Assembly (NCBI GenBank): GCA_021324975.1
Contig: JAJPIA010000143.1
Location: 1 to 40,616 of the forward strand
DNA length: 40,616 nt
From: Bacillota bacterium
Lineage (GTDB): Bacteria > Sysuimicrobiota > Sysuimicrobiia > Sysuimicrobiales > Segetimicrobiaceae
Direction: 5' to 3'
Positions within the stretch are counted from its first letter, which is position 1, and each line of letters opens with the position of its first letter. The notes below the pieces were generated by a model. That model was not told the DNA's origin. It ran no database searches and saw only the letters and a list, made by a program, of their open reading frames with translations. Below are positions 6,626-37,825 of the stretch, piece after piece. The position numbers were made by a program, and so were the translations under genes.

Positions 6626-6846
6626 ACGCGTCCTCGCTAGCATTGAATTAGTGGATCGTCGTGTCCAATTCAACGTACTTCAACATCAATGCCGGATCGT
6701 CCCCACCCGAGGGGCATCGCCGGCGCGGTCCCGAAGCTGCGTCCGTGGCGGATATCGGCCGCCCTCAAACAGCCCGGTCCACAGCGCAACCCGAGGAGGT
6801 CGCCCCGGTGGGCGCGTGAGTGATGCGCGACAAAGTGACGGCCATG

Positions 6847-7026
6847 CTACGCGGTTCGGGCCAGCCCGACCGACTTCTTCGCTCCGTCACTCCCGCGAGA
6901 CGTGCCGTCACCCTGAACTTCGCCCCAATAGCAGTCGTCGCAGAAGCGCACGATCACGCCGTTTCGCTCCAGCTCATATCGAACCGCACGAAGGCCGCAC
7001 CGCTCACATGGTGTTTGAGACTTCAT
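6847..7026 (-). CDS. Small zinc-ribbon protein
   Basis: The 59-residue product has two C-x2-C pairs, Cys7/Cys10 and Cys29/Cys32, which should bind one zinc. A beta-hairpin-like stretch lies between them and a Lys/Ser/Gly-rich tail follows. The internal ATG at 7026 is preferred over an upstream one because GGGGGAGAAGGG precedes it. It lies 221 bases upstream of the cytochrome c gene on the same strand and may share its transcript. I do not recognise a specific family. Confidence 0.55.
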   Translation of the reverse strand: MKSQTPCERCGLRAVRYELERNGVIVRFCDDCYWGEVQGDGTSRGSDGAKKSVGLARTA

Positions 7027-7087
7027 CCCTTCTCCCCCTTCTATGTCATAGTGTGTGTCGAATGATAGCCGTCGAGGATGCCCTCCC

Positions 7088-7265
7088 GGGGAGAAGATCA
7101 ACTCCCCCCTCGCGGCGTGACCGCTTGGGAAAGACTATCTCTCCCTGGGAGCGGCGCGGCATCTGACCACCGATAGGGAGACGCCGTCTCGAACGCCGTT
7201 CTTATAGAAGGCTGTGGCGACGCCGCGCGTGGTGCTCTCAAGATGTTGTCGGGAGGTGGGAGCCA
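7088..7265 (+). ncRNA. Possible bridge-RNA region of the IS110 element
   Basis: The stretch upstream of the IS110 transposase has no gene and contains three small hairpins: GGGGAG/CTCCCC at 7088-7107, CTCCC-T-GGGAG at 7141-7151 and GAGACG-C-CGTCTC at 7178-7190. IS110-group elements are known to encode a structured bridge RNA in the non-coding end upstream of the transposase. Position and structure fit, but no target- or donor-binding loop was identified, and the element is decayed. The element's left end is unknown. Confidence 0.22.
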
Positions 7266-8489
7266 GTGCTGTTGGTCGGGATTGATTGGGCCGATACCGA
7301 GCATGTCTATTGTCTGATGGACGACGCTGGGACCACGCTGGCCACGGGGACGATCGACCACACCGCGGAGGGGCTGGAGCGTTTTATGGCCCTGGTCCGG
7401 GCCCGCGTTCAGAATCCGCAGGATGTCCTTGTCGCGCTCGAGACGTCCCATGGCCCGCTCGTGGGCGCGCTGCTCGACCAGCAGTTCACGGTCTACGCGA
7501 TCAACCCTAAGGCGGTCGACCGGCATCGGGAGCGGTTTCGTGTCGCGAGCGCCAAGTCGGATCTGCGGGATGCCTGGGTCCTGGCGACCCTCCTGCGCAC
7601 GGATCGGGCGCAATATCGCCCTCTGCGGCCGGACTCGGAGATCGCCCAGGAGTTGCGTGCCCTCACCCGGGACCGTGCCGAGTTGGTGCGCACCCGCACC
7701 ATACTCAGCAATCAGCTGACCGCGTGTCTGAAGGCCTATTTCCCCGAGTTCTTGGCCCTGTTCGCGGATCCCGACCGGCCCGTCGCGCTGGCGCTGCTTC
7801 GGGCATTTCCGACCCGCGAGGCGCTGCAGACGGTATCGGCGGAGAAGATCGAGACATTCCTCCGTCGCCATCACTGCCCCCGTAGCCGGGAGTGGGCGGC
7901 CGAGATTCATACGCGGATGCAGGCCCGCGGCTTCATATCGCCCCGCCCATCGTCCGCGCGAAGGCGCGTCTGGCTGCGACGCTGGCGTCCCAGCTGCAAA
8001 CGCTTGCCGAGCACCTGGCCGCGTACGATCGGGAGATTCAGCGGGTGTTGAAACTCCATCCTGACGGCGAGCTCTACGACAGCCTGCCAGGCGCTGCAGC
8101 TCTTCTCGCCGCCAGGATGGTCGGAGAACTGGGCGACAATCGCGACCGGTATCGCGATGCCAGCACCGCCCAGTGCGAAGCCGGTACCGCCCCCCGTCAC
8201 CCGGAAAAGCGGGGCCAGTCGCACAGTCCATGTTCGTCGGGCCTGTATTCATCCTTTGCGCGAGACCCTGTGGCAGTTTGCCTTTGTCAGCATGCGCCAC
8301 TGTGAGTGGGCCAAAACCTACTACGATCGCGCCCGGCTGCGCGGCAAGAAGCACGCCGAAGCGGTGCGGATGCTCGGCAACGTGTGGCTGCGCCTTATCA
8401 TCGCTATGCGCCGCGACCACCGGCCGTACGACGAAGCTCTTTTCCTTAAAGCGCGCTCTGCTCATCCATCCTTGGCCCTATGCTCTTGA
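7266..8489 (+). pseudogene. IS110-family transposase with at least two frameshifts
   Basis: The GTG at 7266 follows GGGAGGTGGGAG. The N-terminal DEDD (RuvC-like) domain is clear: VGIDWAD, then LETSHGPLV, INPKAVDRHRERF and SAKSDLRDAWVLA. The frame breaks near 7930 and resumes as APPIVRAKARLAATLASQL and LPGAAALLAARMVGELG. A second break near 8190 leads to PVTRKSGASRTVHVRRACI (the Ser-containing transposase 20-like domain), then HAEAVRMLGNVWLRLI and a stop at 8489. All family parts are present over about 400 residues, so this was once a complete IS. It cannot now make a full transposase. IS110 elements lack inverted ends, and none was seen. Confidence 0.85.
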
Positions 8490-31070: not shown

Positions 31071-33515
31071 TTACGCTCCCGGCGGCGGCTGAAACGCGGT
31101 CACGGCAGGCGGTGTGCCCACATACTTCTCCACCTGCACGAGCGCCGTGTGCGACGGGTTGCCGTCGGCCAGGCGCGAACTCGGAGCGTCCGAGGTGAGC
31201 ATGTTCACGTTCCCGTGGCGGTCCAGGGTGCCGGGGCGGCCGGGCTCGAGCGGATCGTACCAGCCGCCCTCGTGCATCGCCACCACGCCGCGCCGGGTGC
31301 GCGAGGTGACCAGGGCGCCGGCGAGCGTTTGCCCGCGGTCGTTGTACACGCGCACGATGTCGCCGTTGGCGATCCCCCGCGCCGCGGCGTCCTGGGGGTG
31401 GATCCAGATCGGTTCTCGGTCCCCGACCTCGTAGGTGCGGCGCAACCCCGTCTCGTCGAGCTGGGAGTGCAGCCGCTCCCGGGGATGCGGCGAGACGAGG
31501 TGGAGGGGGAACCGGCGCGCCAGCGGGCTCCCCAGCCACTCGGGCGGCGGCACCCACGCGGGATGCGGCGGCACGTCGTCGTACCTGAACGAGGCGATCG
31601 TCTCCGAGTAGATCTCGATCTTGCCCGACGGGGTCGACAACGGATGGTTGGCCGGGTCGGCCCGGAAGCCCGCGTACGCCACCACCTGGTTCGCCGCGTC
31701 GGGCACGGGAAACTCGAGATACCCACGCCGCCAAAACGTGTCGAAATCGGGGAGCTCGGCACCGCCCGAGCCACCTTGCTGCTGCGCGGGCGCCTCGGCA
31801 TTGCGCGCTTTCCACTGCTGCTGCGCCGTCCCGTAGAATTGGCGCAGCCACGCCATCTCGTCCATCCCCTCCGTGTACTGTGCGCCGAACCCGAGCCGCT
31901 CGGCCAGGGCGGCGCAGATATCGAAGTCGTGCCGGGCCTCGAACAGCGGGGGCACGACCTGCTGCATCGCGATCAGGAACTTGTCGGTGCCCACGAGATC
32001 GTTACGCTCGAGCGTGGTTGTCGCCGGCAAGACGATGTCCGCGTGCTTCGCGGTCGCCGTCCAGACATAGTCGTGTACGATCGTCACCTCGGGATGCTGC
32101 CATGCCCGAACGGTGCGGTTCGTGTCCTGTGCGTGATGCAGAGGGTTGCCACCGGCCCAGTAGACCAGCTTGATGTCGGGATAGGTGAGCTTGCGCCCGT
32201 CGTAATCGATCGTCTTGCCGGGGTTGAGTAGCATGTCGACCCACATGTTGATCGGGACGAAATCTTTGACGGGGTTGCTGCCGGCCGGGAGCCCCGGGAG
32301 CGGGGGTGCGCTGCCGAGCGGCGACCCGAGCCCGCTCGGGAAGTTGATCTGCGCGCCGCCGCCAGCCAGGCCAAACTGGCCGAGCATCGTCGCGAGCGTG
32401 ATCATCATCCACACGGGTTGCTCCCCGTGCGCGGCTCGCTGGAGCGAAAACCCGCCGACGAGCGCCGTCCGCGATCGGGCCATGCGGCGGGCCAGCGACC
32501 GGATCGTGTCGGCCGGCACGTCTGTGATCGACGCCGCCCACTCCGGCGATTTTGACTGGCCGTCGGCTTTGCCGCTCAGGTAGTCCGCGAACCGCTCGAA
32601 CCCGACCGTGTACTTCGCCAAAAAATCCTTGTCGTAGAGGTTCTCGGTGACCAGCGCATGCGCGATACCGAGCAGGAGCGCGGTGTCGGTGTTCGGGCGA
32701 ATCGCGAGGCGCTCAGCCCGGACGTACTGATCCGTATCGGTCTCGAGCGGATTCACGGCCACGATCGGCGTCTTCTTGTCTCGAAGCTGCGTGAGCCACC
32801 CTTTATCAAGGTGGGCGCCGTCCCCGCCGGAGAGGATCTCGGCCGTCGTGAGCGGGTCCGTGCCGATGAGCACGACGAGCGTGCTGTGCTGCACGATCGT
32901 GGGCCACGCCGATGCCGCGGGCCGGGCATCGCCGAGCACGTGCGGCGTGATCACGGGCAGCACCGGCGCGCTGTACGTGTTGACGTACGAGACATAGCCG
33001 CCGAACATCCCCAGCAGGCGCTGCAGCGCCTGCGTGGCCCCATGCAACTTGCCCGCGCTCTGCCAGCCGTAGCTGCCGCCGTAAATCGCCCTGTTGTCGT
33101 ACTGGCTCTTGACCCGCCGCAGCTCGGCGGCCACGAGGTCGAGTGCCTGGTCCCATGAGACCCGGACAAACGGCTCGGCGCCGCGGCCCGTTGTGTCACT
33201 GCGCTCGCGGTTGCGGTAGAAGCCTTGCCGAATCATCGGGTACTTGATCCGGTTGGGCGCGTACAGGACGTCCGGCATCGCGGTGATCATACGGTTGGGG
33301 TTCGGGTCACGGGCGAAGGGCCGCGTGCGGACCAGGCGCCCTCCGACGATCTCCGCGGTGAATGCGCCCCAGTGCGCGACGCTGAGCCGGGTCACCGGGG
33401 CCGTGGCCGCTGGTGCGGCGCTCGCCGGGATGGCGCGCACCAGTGGTGCCGCAACGAGTCCGCCGATTGCCGTTGTGGTGTGGCGAAGCAACGCGCGCCG
33501 TGTAAGCGTATGCAT
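31071..33515 (-). CDS. torA: Second Tat-exported DMSO/TMAO reductase-family molybdoenzyme
   Basis: This 814-residue paralogue of the 9451-11910 enzyme has the ATG at 33515 with GGAGG eight bases upstream and a Tat signal (L-T-R-R-A-L-L-R). IYGGSYGW (Tyr149, Trp151) and Ser182 in VNTYSAPVLPVITPHV mark the bis-MGD site. Ser at this place defines the DMSO/TMAO reductase class. Other blocks are FSLQRAAHGEQ, YWAGGNPLHHAQD and SPHPRERLHSQLD. The active-site neighbourhood (N-T-Y-S-A-P rather than G-D-Y-S-T-G) differs from the first copy, so the two may prefer different oxides. It heads the torA-torD-cytochrome-kinase operon. Confidence 0.93.
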   Translation of the reverse strand: MHTLTRRALLRHTTTAIGGLVAAPLVRAIPASAAPAATAPVTRLSVAHWGAFTAEIVGGRLVRTRPFARDPNPNRMITAMPDVLYAPNRIKYPMIRQGFYRNRERSDTTGRGAEPFVRVSWDQALDLVAAELRRVKSQYDNRAIYGGSYGWQSAGKLHGATQALQRLLGMFGGYVSYVNTYSAPVLPVITPHVLGDARPAASAWPTIVQHSTLVVLIGTDPLTTAEILSGGDGAHLDKGWLTQLRDKKTPIVAVNPLETDTDQYVRAERLAIRPNTDTALLLGIAHALVTENLYDKDFLAKYTVGFERFADYLSGKADGQSKSPEWAASITDVPADTIRSLARRMARSRTALVGGFSLQRAAHGEQPVWMMITLATMLGQFGLAGGGAQINFPSGLGSPLGSAPPLPGLPAGSNPVKDFVPINMWVDMLLNPGKTIDYDGRKLTYPDIKLVYWAGGNPLHHAQDTNRTVRAWQHPEVTIVHDYVWTATAKHADIVLPATTTLERNDLVGTDKFLIAMQQVVPPLFEARHDFDICAALAERLGFGAQYTEGMDEMAWLRQFYGTAQQQWKARNAEAPAQQQGGSGGAELPDFDTFWRRGYLEFPVPDAANQVVAYAGFRADPANHPLSTPSGKIEIYSETIASFRYDDVPPHPAWVPPPEWLGSPLARRFPLHLVSPHPRERLHSQLDETGLRRTYEVGDREPIWIHPQDAAARGIANGDIVRVYNDRGQTLAGALVTSRTRRGVVAMHEGGWYDPLEPGRPGTLDRHGNVNMLTSDAPSSRLADGNPSHTALVQVEKYVGTPPAVTAFQPPPGA

Positions 33516-33633
33516 CACGCCTGCCTCCGTGCTTAGGATTGGAATCGATCGGACGCTTCCCGTGTCCGCGCCCGCTACGGGGCCCTCGCGACGATCGTCT
33601 TCGGAACGTGCACCCGCCCCGCCGCGTCGGCCG

Positions 33634-33755
33634 CTACGCACCGGGCGGTGGCGCGAACGCCGTGATCGCCCGTGGGCGTCCGACGTCTTCTCGACCTGCG
33701 CCAGCGCCACGAGGGACGGGTTCCCCGTGAGCCGCCACCGTTCAAAATAACATAC
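33634..33755 (-). pseudogene. C-terminal remnant of a third DMSO/TMAO reductase gene
   Basis: Leftward translation gives WRLTGNPSLVALAQVEKTSD, and one base off it ends AITAFAPPPGA and a stop at 33634. The end of the neighbouring molybdoenzyme is SRLADGNPSHTALVQVEKY and AVTAFQPPPGA, so this is about 38 codons of a paralogue's tail. Nothing of the rest remains upstream. It lies 118 bases before the start of the intact gene and marks either a tandem array reduced by deletion or an unequal duplication scar. Confidence 0.75.
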
Positions 33756-34069
33756 GGTGGCGGGCTCTTGGCTTGTCCACCGACAAGTTGGATGGTGCGC
33801 GCGGTATGCGATTCCAGGCAGCAGCCGCGCCGCTGTGCGCCGCAGCGGTTCAGGTCCTATCGGCGGATGCAGTGTCGCAATGCCGAGTTGACGAACACAC
33901 CGGGTCACGTAGCCGGCGGTTCACACCCCCGACCAGCGCTTCGCGAAATACACGAGCCACCGCGGCATCGCCGCCCGCGGGTAGGCACCCACCCAGAGGA
34001 GCGCACCTGCCTGGGGGGGGTGGACGTCGCTGCGCCACGCCGAAGGAGGCGACCAGTCGCTCGATGGCG
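33756..34069. other. Stretch without a gene between the remnant and the Crp-type regulator
   Basis: I see no gene. The open frame that extends the remnant upstream is not family-like. A run of eight G occurs near 34014-34021. Confidence 0.4.
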
Positions 34070-34768
34070 CTACGGATCGTCTGCGATCGCACGCACCTTG
34101 TCGGGCGCCCGAAGCTGCACGCTGGCGCGACTCGCGCTCACGATCCCCTGGCGCCGCCAGCCCCGCAGAACGCGCGACAACGTCGGCGGGGTGGTGCCCA
34201 CGAATTCGGCGAGATCTCGGTGCAATAGCAAGAGGGGCCGACTGGTACCCCGTGTGAGCCGGAGCAGCGTGCGCGCGACGCGCTGTTCCACGGGCTCCGT
34301 GGCGAGATCCTCGACACGCATCCAGTACGATTGCACCCGGCGGGCCATCCAGCGCAGCGCGTTCGCCACGACGACGGGATGCTGATCCACGATCCGCTGC
34401 ATGCTCTCCCGAGACCAGCTGAGGACCTGGCTGTCCTGCGCCATCTGCGCGGTGTACGTTTGGTCGCCGCGTCCGTAGAGGTCGATGAGTCCGAAGACAT
34501 CGCCGGGGCGGAGAAACGCGAGCACCACGCGGTGGCCCTTCGGCGCCGTACGGACCAAGGTGCCGGCGCCATCGAGCAGCAGGTACACACGCGTGGGCCG
34601 CTCGCCCTGCCGAAACAGGATGTTGCCTTTGCGCACCCGCTGGATGCTTGCGGAACGCAGCAACGCGGCCAACTGGTCCTGCCCGACCGCGTGAAAAAGC
34701 GGGCAGTGGGCGAGGAATGCTGGCAGGGTGGGACTCGAAAGCTTTAGCGGCTGCACGCGGCGCGTCAT
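34070..34768 (-). CDS. Crp/Fnr-family regulator without Fe-S cysteines
   Basis: The 232-residue product has a CNMP-type beta-roll (FHAVGQDQLAALLRSASIQR, RKGNILFRQGERPTRVYLLL, LRPGDVFGLIDLYG), a long dimer helix and an HTH (HRDLAEFVGTTPPTLSRVLR). Only one Cys is near the N-terminus, so it is not an oxygen-sensing FNR. It fits NnrR/DNR-type or other Crp regulators. GGGGGATATTCGAC before the ATG at 34768 favours this start, and an upstream ATG at 34813 is possible. Divergence from the NO reductase gene (194 bases) suggests NO-responsive control, an inference from position. Confidence 0.88.
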   Translation of the reverse strand: MTRRVQPLKLSSPTLPAFLAHCPLFHAVGQDQLAALLRSASIQRVRKGNILFRQGERPTRVYLLLDGAGTLVRTAPKGHRVVLAFLRPGDVFGLIDLYGRGDQTYTAQMAQDSQVLSWSRESMQRIVDQHPVVVANALRWMARRVQSYWMRVEDLATEPVEQRVARTLLRLTRGTSRPLLLLHRDLAEFVGTTPPTLSRVLRGWRRQGIVSASRASVQLRAPDKVRAIADDP

Positions 34769-34874
34769 GTCGAATATCCCCCGCTCTCCGTCACCGATTG
34801 CCGCATTCAGCATACGCGCGGGGCGCTGTCTCGCCTATCGGGTTCTCAGCGTATTCGCGCATCGGTCTACCGTA

Positions 34875-34889: not shown

Positions 34890-34961
34890 CGCCGCGGGAC
34901 GAAGTCGTTGTGGCAGCGGATCTGTAGGAACCCTTCGGCTGGGTCCTCGACGGAGGCCACG

Positions 34962-37247
34962 ATGAATTCGAAGCGGCCGCTCATGATCTCCCGAGCGTGG
35001 GTGCAGGCGGTCCTCTTGGTTTTTGTGTTCGGCTTCCTCGTGCTCGGCATGCTCGCGTGGGGCACGTATGTGGCTGCGCCGCCCATCCCCAGAACGGTCA
35101 CCGACCCGACCGGTCGGGTGCTCTACACGCGCAACGACGTGATCGCAGGTCAGGAGGTGTTTCTGCGCAACGGGCTCATGGAGTACGGCTCCATCTTCGG
35201 TCACGGGGCGTATCTCGGCCCCGACTACACCGCCGATTACCTCCACCGAGCCGCCCTCTTCGTCCTCGCCGCCTACGGCGGCCCTGGGTCCAATCAAGGG
35301 CAGGCGCGGACGATCGCAGATTTCAAGACAAACCGATACGATGCGAAGACGGACTCGCTGACGTACACGAGCGCGCAGGCCCGCGCGTTGGACGAGTTAG
35401 CCGGGCACTATCGGGATGTGTTTCGAAATCCCACGACGCGATACGGGCTCCGGCCGGGCGCGATCTCAAGCCCGCAGGCGGTGCAACAGCTGACCGCCTT
35501 CTTCAGCTGGTCCGCCTGGGCGGCGGCGGCCCTGCGGCCCGGACGCTCGTATTCCTACACGAACAACTGGCCGCCTGAGCCGCTCGTCGATAACCATCCG
35601 ACGGCGGAGACGTTAGTGTGGAGCGTCCTCTCGCTCGTCGCGCTGCTGGGCGGCATCGGCCTCCTCCTCGCCGCGTTCGGCCGTTGGAACCTCCTCGGCT
35701 GGCACGGCCGCGAGCGGCAGGCCCTCGCGTTTCGGCCTCCCGGCGAGGTCGCCCTCACGCCGGCGCAACGAGCATGCGCGTGGTTCTTCCTCGTCATGGC
35801 GGCGTTGTTCGTGCTGCAGGCGCTGCTCGGCGGGGCGACCCAGCACTACCGCGCTGACCTCTCCACCTTCTTCGGCGTCGATCTCGCTCGGGTGCTGCCC
35901 TTCAATGTGGCACGCACCTGGCACGTTCAGCTCGCCATCTTCTGGGTGTCCACGTCGTATCTCGCGGCCGGCATCTTTCTTGCGCCGATGATCGCGGGCC
36001 GCGAGCCCCGGGGGCAACAGTGGCTTGCGTACGCCCTGCTCGCGGCGCTGGCGCTCGTGGTCTTTGGCAGCCTGGCGGGCGAGTATGCCGGGATCTTCGG
36101 CTGGATCACGCGGGGCTGGAGCTGGATCGGCGATCAGGGATTCGAGTATCTCGATCTCGGGCGCCTGTGGCAGGTGCTGCTGACGCTCGGTCTGTTCTTC
36201 TGGGTCGCGCTCCTGTTTCGCGGCCTCCGGGGCCGGCTCGCGCAGGAACACGCCGGCAACATGCCGTGGCTGTTCTTCTTCTCCGCGCTCTCGATCCCGG
36301 CATTCTACGCGGTCGGGCTCCTGGCACAGCCCTCGGCCCAATTCACGAGCACCGACTTCTGGCGCTTCTGGGTCGTGCACCTCTGGGTCGAGGATTTCCT
36401 GGAACTGTTCACGACGATCATGGTGGCGTATCTGTTCGTGCTGCTGGGGGTGGTCGACGAGCGGGTCGCGCTCACGATGTGCTACCTCGACATCCTGCTA
36501 TATTCGGTGGGCGGCATGATCGGGACGATGCACCACCTGTACTTCTCGGGGGAGCCGGCGGTGCACATGGCGCTCGGCGCCTTCTTCTCGGCGGCGGAGG
36601 TCATCCCGCTCACGTTCCTGACGGTCGATGCGTGGAGCTTCCTGCAGTTGGGCGCGTTCCAGGGCGCCCGCGCTCGCACGCCGTTCCCGCACTACTGGGC
36701 GGTCATGTTCCTGGCCGCGGTCGGATTCTGGAACTTCCTCGGCGCCGGCATCTTCGGGTTCCTCATCAACCTCCCGATCGTCTCGTACTACGAGATCGGG
36801 ACGGCCCTTACCGCCAATCACGCCCACGCGGCGATGATGGGCGTCTACGGCATGCTCGCCGTGGGGCTCGCGCTGTTCTGCCTGCGCTATATGATACCGA
36901 CGGAACGCTGGTCCGACCGGGCGGCCCGGCTCAGCTTCTGGTCCCTTAATATCGGACTTGCCTGGATGGTGTTCGCCACGTTGTTCCCGCTCGGCATGCT
37001 GCAACTGTATCACTCGGTGAGCCAAGGGTATTACGACGCGCGCAGCCTGGACTACATTACCGGAGGGCTCAACCCCATCATCGAGTGGCTCCGCTTCCCG
37101 GGCGACGTCCTCTTCATCGTGGGCGGCACGCTCCCAGTCCTCTACCTCGCCTGGCTTGGCGTCCGACACCTGGTACCGCGGGTGACGCTCGAGGAGCCCG
37201 CGGACATCCTGGTCAGCGAGTTGACCGAACCGGTGCACGGATCATGA
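34962..37247 (+). CDS. norZ: Quinol-dependent nitric oxide reductase (qNOR)
   Basis: This 761-residue single-subunit NO reductase reduces two NO to N2O with quinol. The N-terminal helix and a periplasmic domain (residues 36-210, with DPTGRVLYTRNDVIAGQEVF) mimic NorC without a heme. The NorB core follows: TWHVQLAIFW (His321), VVHLWVEDF (His473 and the conserved Glu477), GTMHHLYFSGEP (His524, His525) and NHAHAAMMG (His620, His622), the heme b, heme b3 and FeB ligands. FSAAEVIPL carries a further conserved Glu. GGAGG precedes the ATG at 34962. Its last bases overlap the next gene as ATGA. It detoxifies or respires the NO made by NirK. Confidence 0.94.
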   Translation: MNSKRPLMISRAWVQAVLLVFVFGFLVLGMLAWGTYVAAPPIPRTVTDPTGRVLYTRNDVIAGQEVFLRNGLMEYGSIFGHGAYLGPDYTADYLHRAALFVLAAYGGPGSNQGQARTIADFKTNRYDAKTDSLTYTSAQARALDELAGHYRDVFRNPTTRYGLRPGAISSPQAVQQLTAFFSWSAWAAAALRPGRSYSYTNNWPPEPLVDNHPTAETLVWSVLSLVALLGGIGLLLAAFGRWNLLGWHGRERQALAFRPPGEVALTPAQRACAWFFLVMAALFVLQALLGGATQHYRADLSTFFGVDLARVLPFNVARTWHVQLAIFWVSTSYLAAGIFLAPMIAGREPRGQQWLAYALLAALALVVFGSLAGEYAGIFGWITRGWSWIGDQGFEYLDLGRLWQVLLTLGLFFWVALLFRGLRGRLAQEHAGNMPWLFFFSALSIPAFYAVGLLAQPSAQFTSTDFWRFWVVHLWVEDFLELFTTIMVAYLFVLLGVVDERVALTMCYLDILLYSVGGMIGTMHHLYFSGEPAVHMALGAFFSAAEVIPLTFLTVDAWSFLQLGAFQGARARTPFPHYWAVMFLAAVGFWNFLGAGIFGFLINLPIVSYYEIGTALTANHAHAAMMGVYGMLAVGLALFCLRYMIPTERWSDRAARLSFWSLNIGLAWMVFATLFPLGMLQLYHSVSQGYYDARSLDYITGGLNPIIEWLRFPGDVLFIVGGTLPVLYLAWLGVRHLVPRVTLEEPADILVSELTEPVHGS

Positions 37248-37825
37248 GCACGACCGCGGTGCATGCCGAGGTTCTCTTCGCCGCCGGCTATGCGCTCGGG
37301 CTCGTGCTGCTCGCCGGCGGTCTCGAGTGCGTGGCGCGTTATACGCTGTGGCAGGCGCACCGCTACCATGCGGCGGGCTTCCGCTACCGCCGCGGGCTGG
37401 ACGCATGGATTTGCCCCGAGGGTGAGCATCTGCGGCGCATCGCCGTGGACCCGGCGGAACGCGTCGCCCGATACCGTGCACCCGCACGCACGTGCAACGC
37501 GTGCCCCGCGAAGCCCCGCTGCACCGATTCTGACGGCGGGCGCGAGATCCAGCACGACCTCCGCCCGTGGCTCGGCACCGCGATCGGGCAATTTCAGCGG
37601 GGCATGTCGCTCGCGATCCTCGGGTTCGCCGCGCTCATCTCTTCGATCGAGCTCGTCCGCTATCCTGATGTGGCGGACGCCGCGGCGCTTGGCACGCTGT
37701 TGCTCGCGGTGGCGGTCCTCGCGCAGCGAGGTTACGGTTCGATGCGCCGGGACGGACGGCGACGTGCTGCGGCTGAGTCTCAGTTCAGGGGCTTCAGGGG
37801 CTTCAGCGGCTCCAACGACAGCTGA
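37244..37825 (+). CDS. Membrane protein with a transposase-type cysteine cluster, coupled to the NO reductase
   Basis: The 193-residue protein has one helix at about 8-32, a soluble segment at 45-110 and two helices at about 120-138 and 146-162, then a basic tail. The soluble part reads WICPEGEHLRR, YRAPARTCNACPAKPRCT, with Cys57, His62, Cys84, Cys87 and Cys93. The spacing and surrounding residues match the zinc segment found near the C-terminus of DDE transposases of the IS1182/DDE_Tnp_1_6 type, yet no catalytic DDE domain is present. The ATG overlaps the NO reductase stop (ATGA), so translation is coupled. A metal- or NO-sensing role for the cluster is an inference. A short repeat (TTCAGGGGC) lies at the 3' end. 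Confidence 0.85.
   Translation: MSTTAVHAEVLFAAGYALGLVLLAGGLECVARYTLWQAHRYHAAGFRYRRGLDAWICPEGEHLRRIAVDPAERVARYRAPARTCNACPAKPRCTDSDGGREIQHDLRPWLGTAIGQFQRGMSLAILGFAALISSIELVRYPDVADAAALGTLLLAVAVLAQRGYGSMRRDGRRRAAAESQFRGFRGFSGSNDS

Follow-up and report, generated by a model that had tools for sequence, protein, structure and literature searches.

The window analysed here, a stretch of 40,616 nucleotides (contig JAJPIA010000143.1 of assembly GCA_021324975.1, a Bacillota bacterium placed by GTDB in the Segetimicrobiaceae of the Sysuimicrobiota), carries a nitric oxide reductase gene that is directly followed by the gene for a small membrane protein, hereafter the partner. The features of this locus are the following.

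34070..34813, minus strand: divergent gene for a CRP/FNR-type regulator (Pfam cNMP_binding and HTH_Crp_2)
34962..37247, plus strand: norZ, quinol-dependent nitric oxide reductase (qNOR), 761 amino acids (Pfam, PDB alignment)
37244..37825, plus strand: small membrane partner gene, 193 amino acids (22 full-length homologues, each directly 3' of a qNOR gene)
37244..37247, plus strand: ATGA start/stop overlap of norZ and the partner gene (spacing -7 to +12 at 23 loci)
37271..37327, plus strand: predicted transmembrane helix 1 (TM1), residues 10-28 (hydropathy; AlphaFold2 helix 8-43)
37370..37561, plus strand: transposase-derived cysteine block, residues 43-106, predicted to be cytoplasmic (NF033551 and PF13751 matches in 23 of 23 homologues; hhalign E=7.7e-16)
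37601..37657, plus strand: predicted transmembrane helix 2 (TM2), residues 120-138 (hydropathy; AlphaFold2 helix 109-139)
37670..37726, plus strand: predicted transmembrane helix 3 (TM3), residues 143-161 (hydropathy; AlphaFold2 helix 143-185)

The norZ product combines a NorB cytochrome c-like domain and a COX1 core in one fused chain (Pfam). It aligns with the qNOR chains of the PDB at E=1.4e-161, including the metal-site residues HLWVE..E and MHH (the FeB His/Glu ligands), and is, judged by its sequence, a canonical qNOR. The CRP/FNR-type gene (34070-34813, minus strand), which diverges from norZ, possibly encodes a regulator of the norZ operon. A molybdopterin oxidoreductase gene of the DMSO reductase type also lies nearby (31071-33908, minus strand); its true start probably lies downstream of the listed GTG.

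The ATG of the partner gene (37244) overlaps the TGA of norZ (37245-37247). A GGAGG is found upstream of norZ at 34952-34956, and at the three loci inspected GGAGG or GGGAGG precedes norZ while neither precedes the small gene. This pattern and the spacing at the 23 loci fit re-initiation of translation at the norZ stop codon. The preliminary description had the partner made together with the NO reductase; spacing and ribosome-site pattern speak for this, and the coupling itself we infer from them.

The partner contains four cysteines, C57 within CPEGEH followed by C84-x2-C87-x5-C93, that are invariant in all 23 homologues. Conservation in these sequences is also complete or almost complete at W55, the CP.G region, T94, G99 and R100, and does not extend to C29 of the window protein. 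Hydropathy identifies three hydrophobic segments (10-28, 120-138 and 143-161), and the charge distribution predicts that the N terminus faces out and the cysteine block lies in the cytoplasm. An AlphaFold2 model built from the 23 sequences (mean pLDDT 85.7) places helices 8-43, 109-139 and 143-185 around a beta-rich block at 47-105. The three helices, the cysteine positions and the ATGA overlap of the preliminary description are all confirmed. A Foldseek search with this model returned no solved relative and nothing meaningful. The four cysteines would form a structural metal site, most likely for zinc.

The cysteine segment had also been described as transposase-derived and devoid of a DDE core, which the profile comparisons bear out. 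Residues 56-104 match Pfam PF13751 (DDE_Tnp_1_6) with E=8.2e-6 and 26.6 bits, above the gathering score of 25.1 bits, over positions 1-53 of the 125-position profile only. Genes of this kind may therefore be labelled automatically as transposase fragments, since they are able to pass the PF13751 score. The NCBIfam model of IS1182 transposases, NF033551, matches residues 29-103 to its positions 337-414 of 488 with E=3.1e-10; the score of 39.6 bits, over 78 of 488 positions, is below the NCBIfam cut-off of 270 bits. The cysteine segment of this model is matched by all 23 homologues at E<=0.1 (best 2e-13), and a profile-profile comparison (hhalign) of residues 43-106 of the 23 homologues with full-length IS1182-type transposases gave E=7.7e-16. 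Neither the N-terminal helix alone (E=0.07) nor the C-terminal helices alone (E=0.93) showed a relationship to transposases, so that the homology is limited to the cysteine block. The DDE core is absent, the NF033551 match spanning the cysteine segment and the helices being unrelated. By these comparisons, IS1182-type transposases carry in their cysteine segment the homologue of the block at residues ~43-106. Two further derivations were rejected. For TM1, a possible origin in the part of the transposase that follows the second catalytic Asp (DAGY becoming AAGY in the full alignment) was not significant by itself, at E=0.07 and with shuffled controls scoring higher; for TM2-TM3, an origin in the transposase C terminus gave no signal.

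In a tree of the block, which is unrooted and short, 12 transposases and the 23 membrane proteins are separated by one split at 98% support, as would fit a single exaptation. Given the wide distribution of IS1182 transposases and the restricted occurrence of the membrane form, it is simpler to assume that the membrane protein arose from a transposase than the reverse. In two family genomes, IS1182-type elements (L046, L047 and L054, in G001 and G004) match the model as far as ~346 and resume at ~416, with hardly any match between these positions; the cysteine segment thus seems to be missing from them, and another lineage of elements was probably the donor. Short profile matches outside the qNOR loci (L004, L016, L017 and L023) proved to be whole or fragmentary transposases that have no membrane helices. 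The homology of the block to a transposase segment, and its richness in Arg, could suggest that the partner has kept a DNA-binding role as a membrane-tethered nucleic-acid-binding protein. We regard this as very improbable, since the protein is tied to an enzyme gene and not to a regulon, and the DNA-binding role of the block in transposases is itself putative.

Within the family of the window (12 genomes), a close qNOR is present in three genomes, which represent three genera, and the partner is present in exactly these three, following the qNOR gene by -4, +2 or +4 bp; none of the nine genomes without qNOR carries it. It is absent from 43 genomes in the rest of the class, and a sample of 386 genomes, mostly domain-wide, yielded only transposases outside the window's family. 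Full-length homologues reappear in the distant class of G265, a genome whose own qNOR is 50% identical: 19 of 299 genomes carry them at 20 loci, in every case directly downstream of a qNOR gene on the same strand. In total, 23 of 23 homologues lie directly behind qNOR, on the same strand and with a spacing of -7 to +12 bp. At some of the distant-class loci, L083, L086 and L088 among them, the qNOR gene runs off the end of its contig or is divided over contigs, and a 21st locus in this class, L105, ends 48 bp past its qNOR gene with the partner start still readable. Searches of 195 genomes from the phylum of G217 and of 9 from the class of G247 gave no partner gene. In the phylum of G265 (294 genomes), the full-length form occurs in the already counted G500 only, the other matches being transposases; a search of plasmids returned a single IS1182 transposase, and one of viral contigs returned nothing. 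In these large searches, only the best candidates per genome were scored. At locus L008 (8364-11395), the pair is followed by genes for a multicopper/NirK-like protein and a hemerythrin-DUF2249 protein, a neighbourhood that suggests a denitrification or NO-stress setting.

The pairing with qNOR put forward in the preliminary description thus withstands the comparison, with the cysteines kept and a qNOR alongside in each case, one of these enzymes being truncated. At that locus (L096 of G629, 6679-7272, minus strand), an intact partner gene stands beside the last ~119 residues of a qNOR, and the genome has no other qNOR match; the partner may persist when its enzyme is lost, or qNOR may have been lost only recently. 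That the partner is a chance transposon remnant left behind norZ might be imagined, IS1182 elements being present in related genomes. However, 23 full-length homologues with conserved helices and cysteines, a fixed position and a dN/dS well below 1 leave this explanation with practically no probability, and we consider it refuted by the recurrence.

The partner is linked to one clade of qNOR rather than to qNOR at large. In the distant class, 69 of 299 genomes encode a qNOR. The partner is found in 18 of the 18 genomes whose qNOR is at least 68% identical to that of the window and in one of the 281 others; it is missing from the 51 genomes that have more distant qNORs only (mostly up to 59% identical), and the 230 genomes without a qNOR match contain it only in G629, beside the remnant. 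No homologue lies behind any checked more distant qNOR, including those of L117-L119 (57-59% identity), whose flanks were checked. A tree of qNOR sets the partner-bearing enzymes apart from the rest with full support and groups the window's three genomes inside them (0.987), which suggests that the partner was gained once and that both genes were later transferred together between distant bacteria.

Estimates of dN/dS for the partner range from about 0.09 to 0.38 in the ten closest pairs, with synonymous sites near saturation. Partner and qNOR distances are correlated (Mantel r=0.84, p=1e-4, n=20), as shared descent alone can produce. The partner evolves faster, with a mean identity of 44% against 73% for qNOR. 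The flanking genes vary between loci, so that the conserved unit is the pair and not a larger cluster. Together, the purifying selection, the parallel divergence of the two proteins and the variable flanks speak for a functional unit. The preliminary description had suggested that the partner may sense NO or protect against it, and neither role receives direct support from the comparisons. One conceivable role for the partner is that of a membrane sensor of NO or redox state, in which NO or oxidants would release the metal from the four cysteines and qNOR or another target would be adjusted. The invariant cysteines, their cytoplasmic side and the production of the protein with an NO-consuming enzyme are in line with such a role, but the partner has no output domain, the variable neighbourhood contains no fixed regulator and the same cysteine pattern is presumably structural in transposases; a sensor therefore seems to us rather improbable.

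Features of the enzyme bear on the place where the partner might act. qNORs are dimeric, and their proton uptake is thought to occur from the cytoplasmic side, with Arg255 and Glu572 of AxqNOR near the entry (PMC6713497). S559 of the window NorZ aligns with Glu572, next to the proposed proton entry, and this position is Ser in 20 of 20 partner-bearing qNORs; in 19 other qNORs it is occupied by E, D, G or N. The link of S559 to the partner is weak, however, because the Glu572Ala variant of AxqNOR is slightly more active (PMC6713497). In seven partnerless qNORs (L026, L028, L029 and L121-L124), the cytoplasmic loop that follows this position, equivalent to residues 565-576 of the window NorZ, holds a conserved C-x2-C; partner-bearing qNORs have none there. 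This motif is possibly a built-in counterpart of the partner's cysteine site, or a coincidence. From the S559 pattern and the C-x2-C of the partnerless relatives, we infer that the cytoplasmic face near this loop is a plausible docking place.

Taken together, the co-occurrence, the gene order and the S559 and loop evidence lead us to favour, with moderate confidence, an accessory or assembly subunit that acts at the cytoplasmic face of qNOR and contains a structural metal site. In such a scheme, a cytoplasmic cysteine block taken from an IS1182-type transposase would have gained TM1 on its N-terminal side and a TM2-TM3 hairpin on its C-terminal side, and would have become fixed behind norZ a single time, at the root of the qNOR clade. 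Re-initiation at the norZ stop would provide matched amounts of the two proteins; the partner would sit beside NorZ, with its block on the cytoplasmic side, close to the presumed site of proton uptake, and would stabilise, assemble or tune the enzyme. A bolder and clearly tentative version would make the qNOR of this clade a two-subunit enzyme, with a transposase fragment turned membrane protein as its second subunit, in which the four-cysteine domain would lie over the cytoplasmic proton entry and set turnover or stability. Against a dedicated partner or subunit it may be said that characterised qNORs work from one gene (PMC9976466, PMC6713497), that the intact partner of L096 has only a qNOR remnant beside it and that Foldseek gave no solved relative. 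The protein could instead be a transient biogenesis factor, a chaperone or insertase for qNOR or an aid to Fe, heme or Ca loading, and not a stable subunit. Its restriction to one clade, co-expression by position and faster evolution agree with this, and NorQ and NorD have such a role for cNOR (PMC9976466); on the other hand, FeB is reported to be inserted into qNOR without the help of further genes (PMC9976466), and the partner has no ATPase or known insertase domain. We hold a transient factor to be unlikely, if worth keeping in mind beside the accessory or assembly subunit that we prefer.

qNOR converts toxic nitric oxide to the greenhouse gas N2O and has been described as needing no other gene. 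The locus is also a clear example of a respiratory membrane protein that has acquired a cysteine domain from a transposase. IS1182-family transposases (NF033551) and PF13751 (DDE_Tnp_1_6) share the same block, F-x-Y...W/Y-x-C-P-x-G-x2-L ... C-x2-C-x5-C-T-x-S ... G-R. Unlike these transposases, the partner lacks the DDE core, is ~190 instead of 450-550 amino acids long, has three membrane helices and is fixed behind norZ. In the literature covered, mostly outside subscription journals, we found no matching account of qNOR accessory genes or of membrane proteins domesticated from transposases. The accessory genes norQDEF of cNOR are likewise conserved beside an NO reductase, and NorQ and NorD take part in the insertion of FeB (PMC9976466); the partner has no Pfam or NCBIfam match to NorQ, NorD, NorE or NorF (AAA+ or VWA domain, NorE/NorF families). 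The window norZ itself encodes a canonical qNOR like those of Alcaligenes (Achromobacter) xylosoxidans, Neisseria meningitidis and Geobacillus stearothermophilus. Those enzymes are described as single-subunit products of single genes (PMC6713497, PMC9976466), whereas the clade of the window has a second conserved gene, present across the whole clade in two unrelated bacterial groups, which changes what must be co-expressed and measured.
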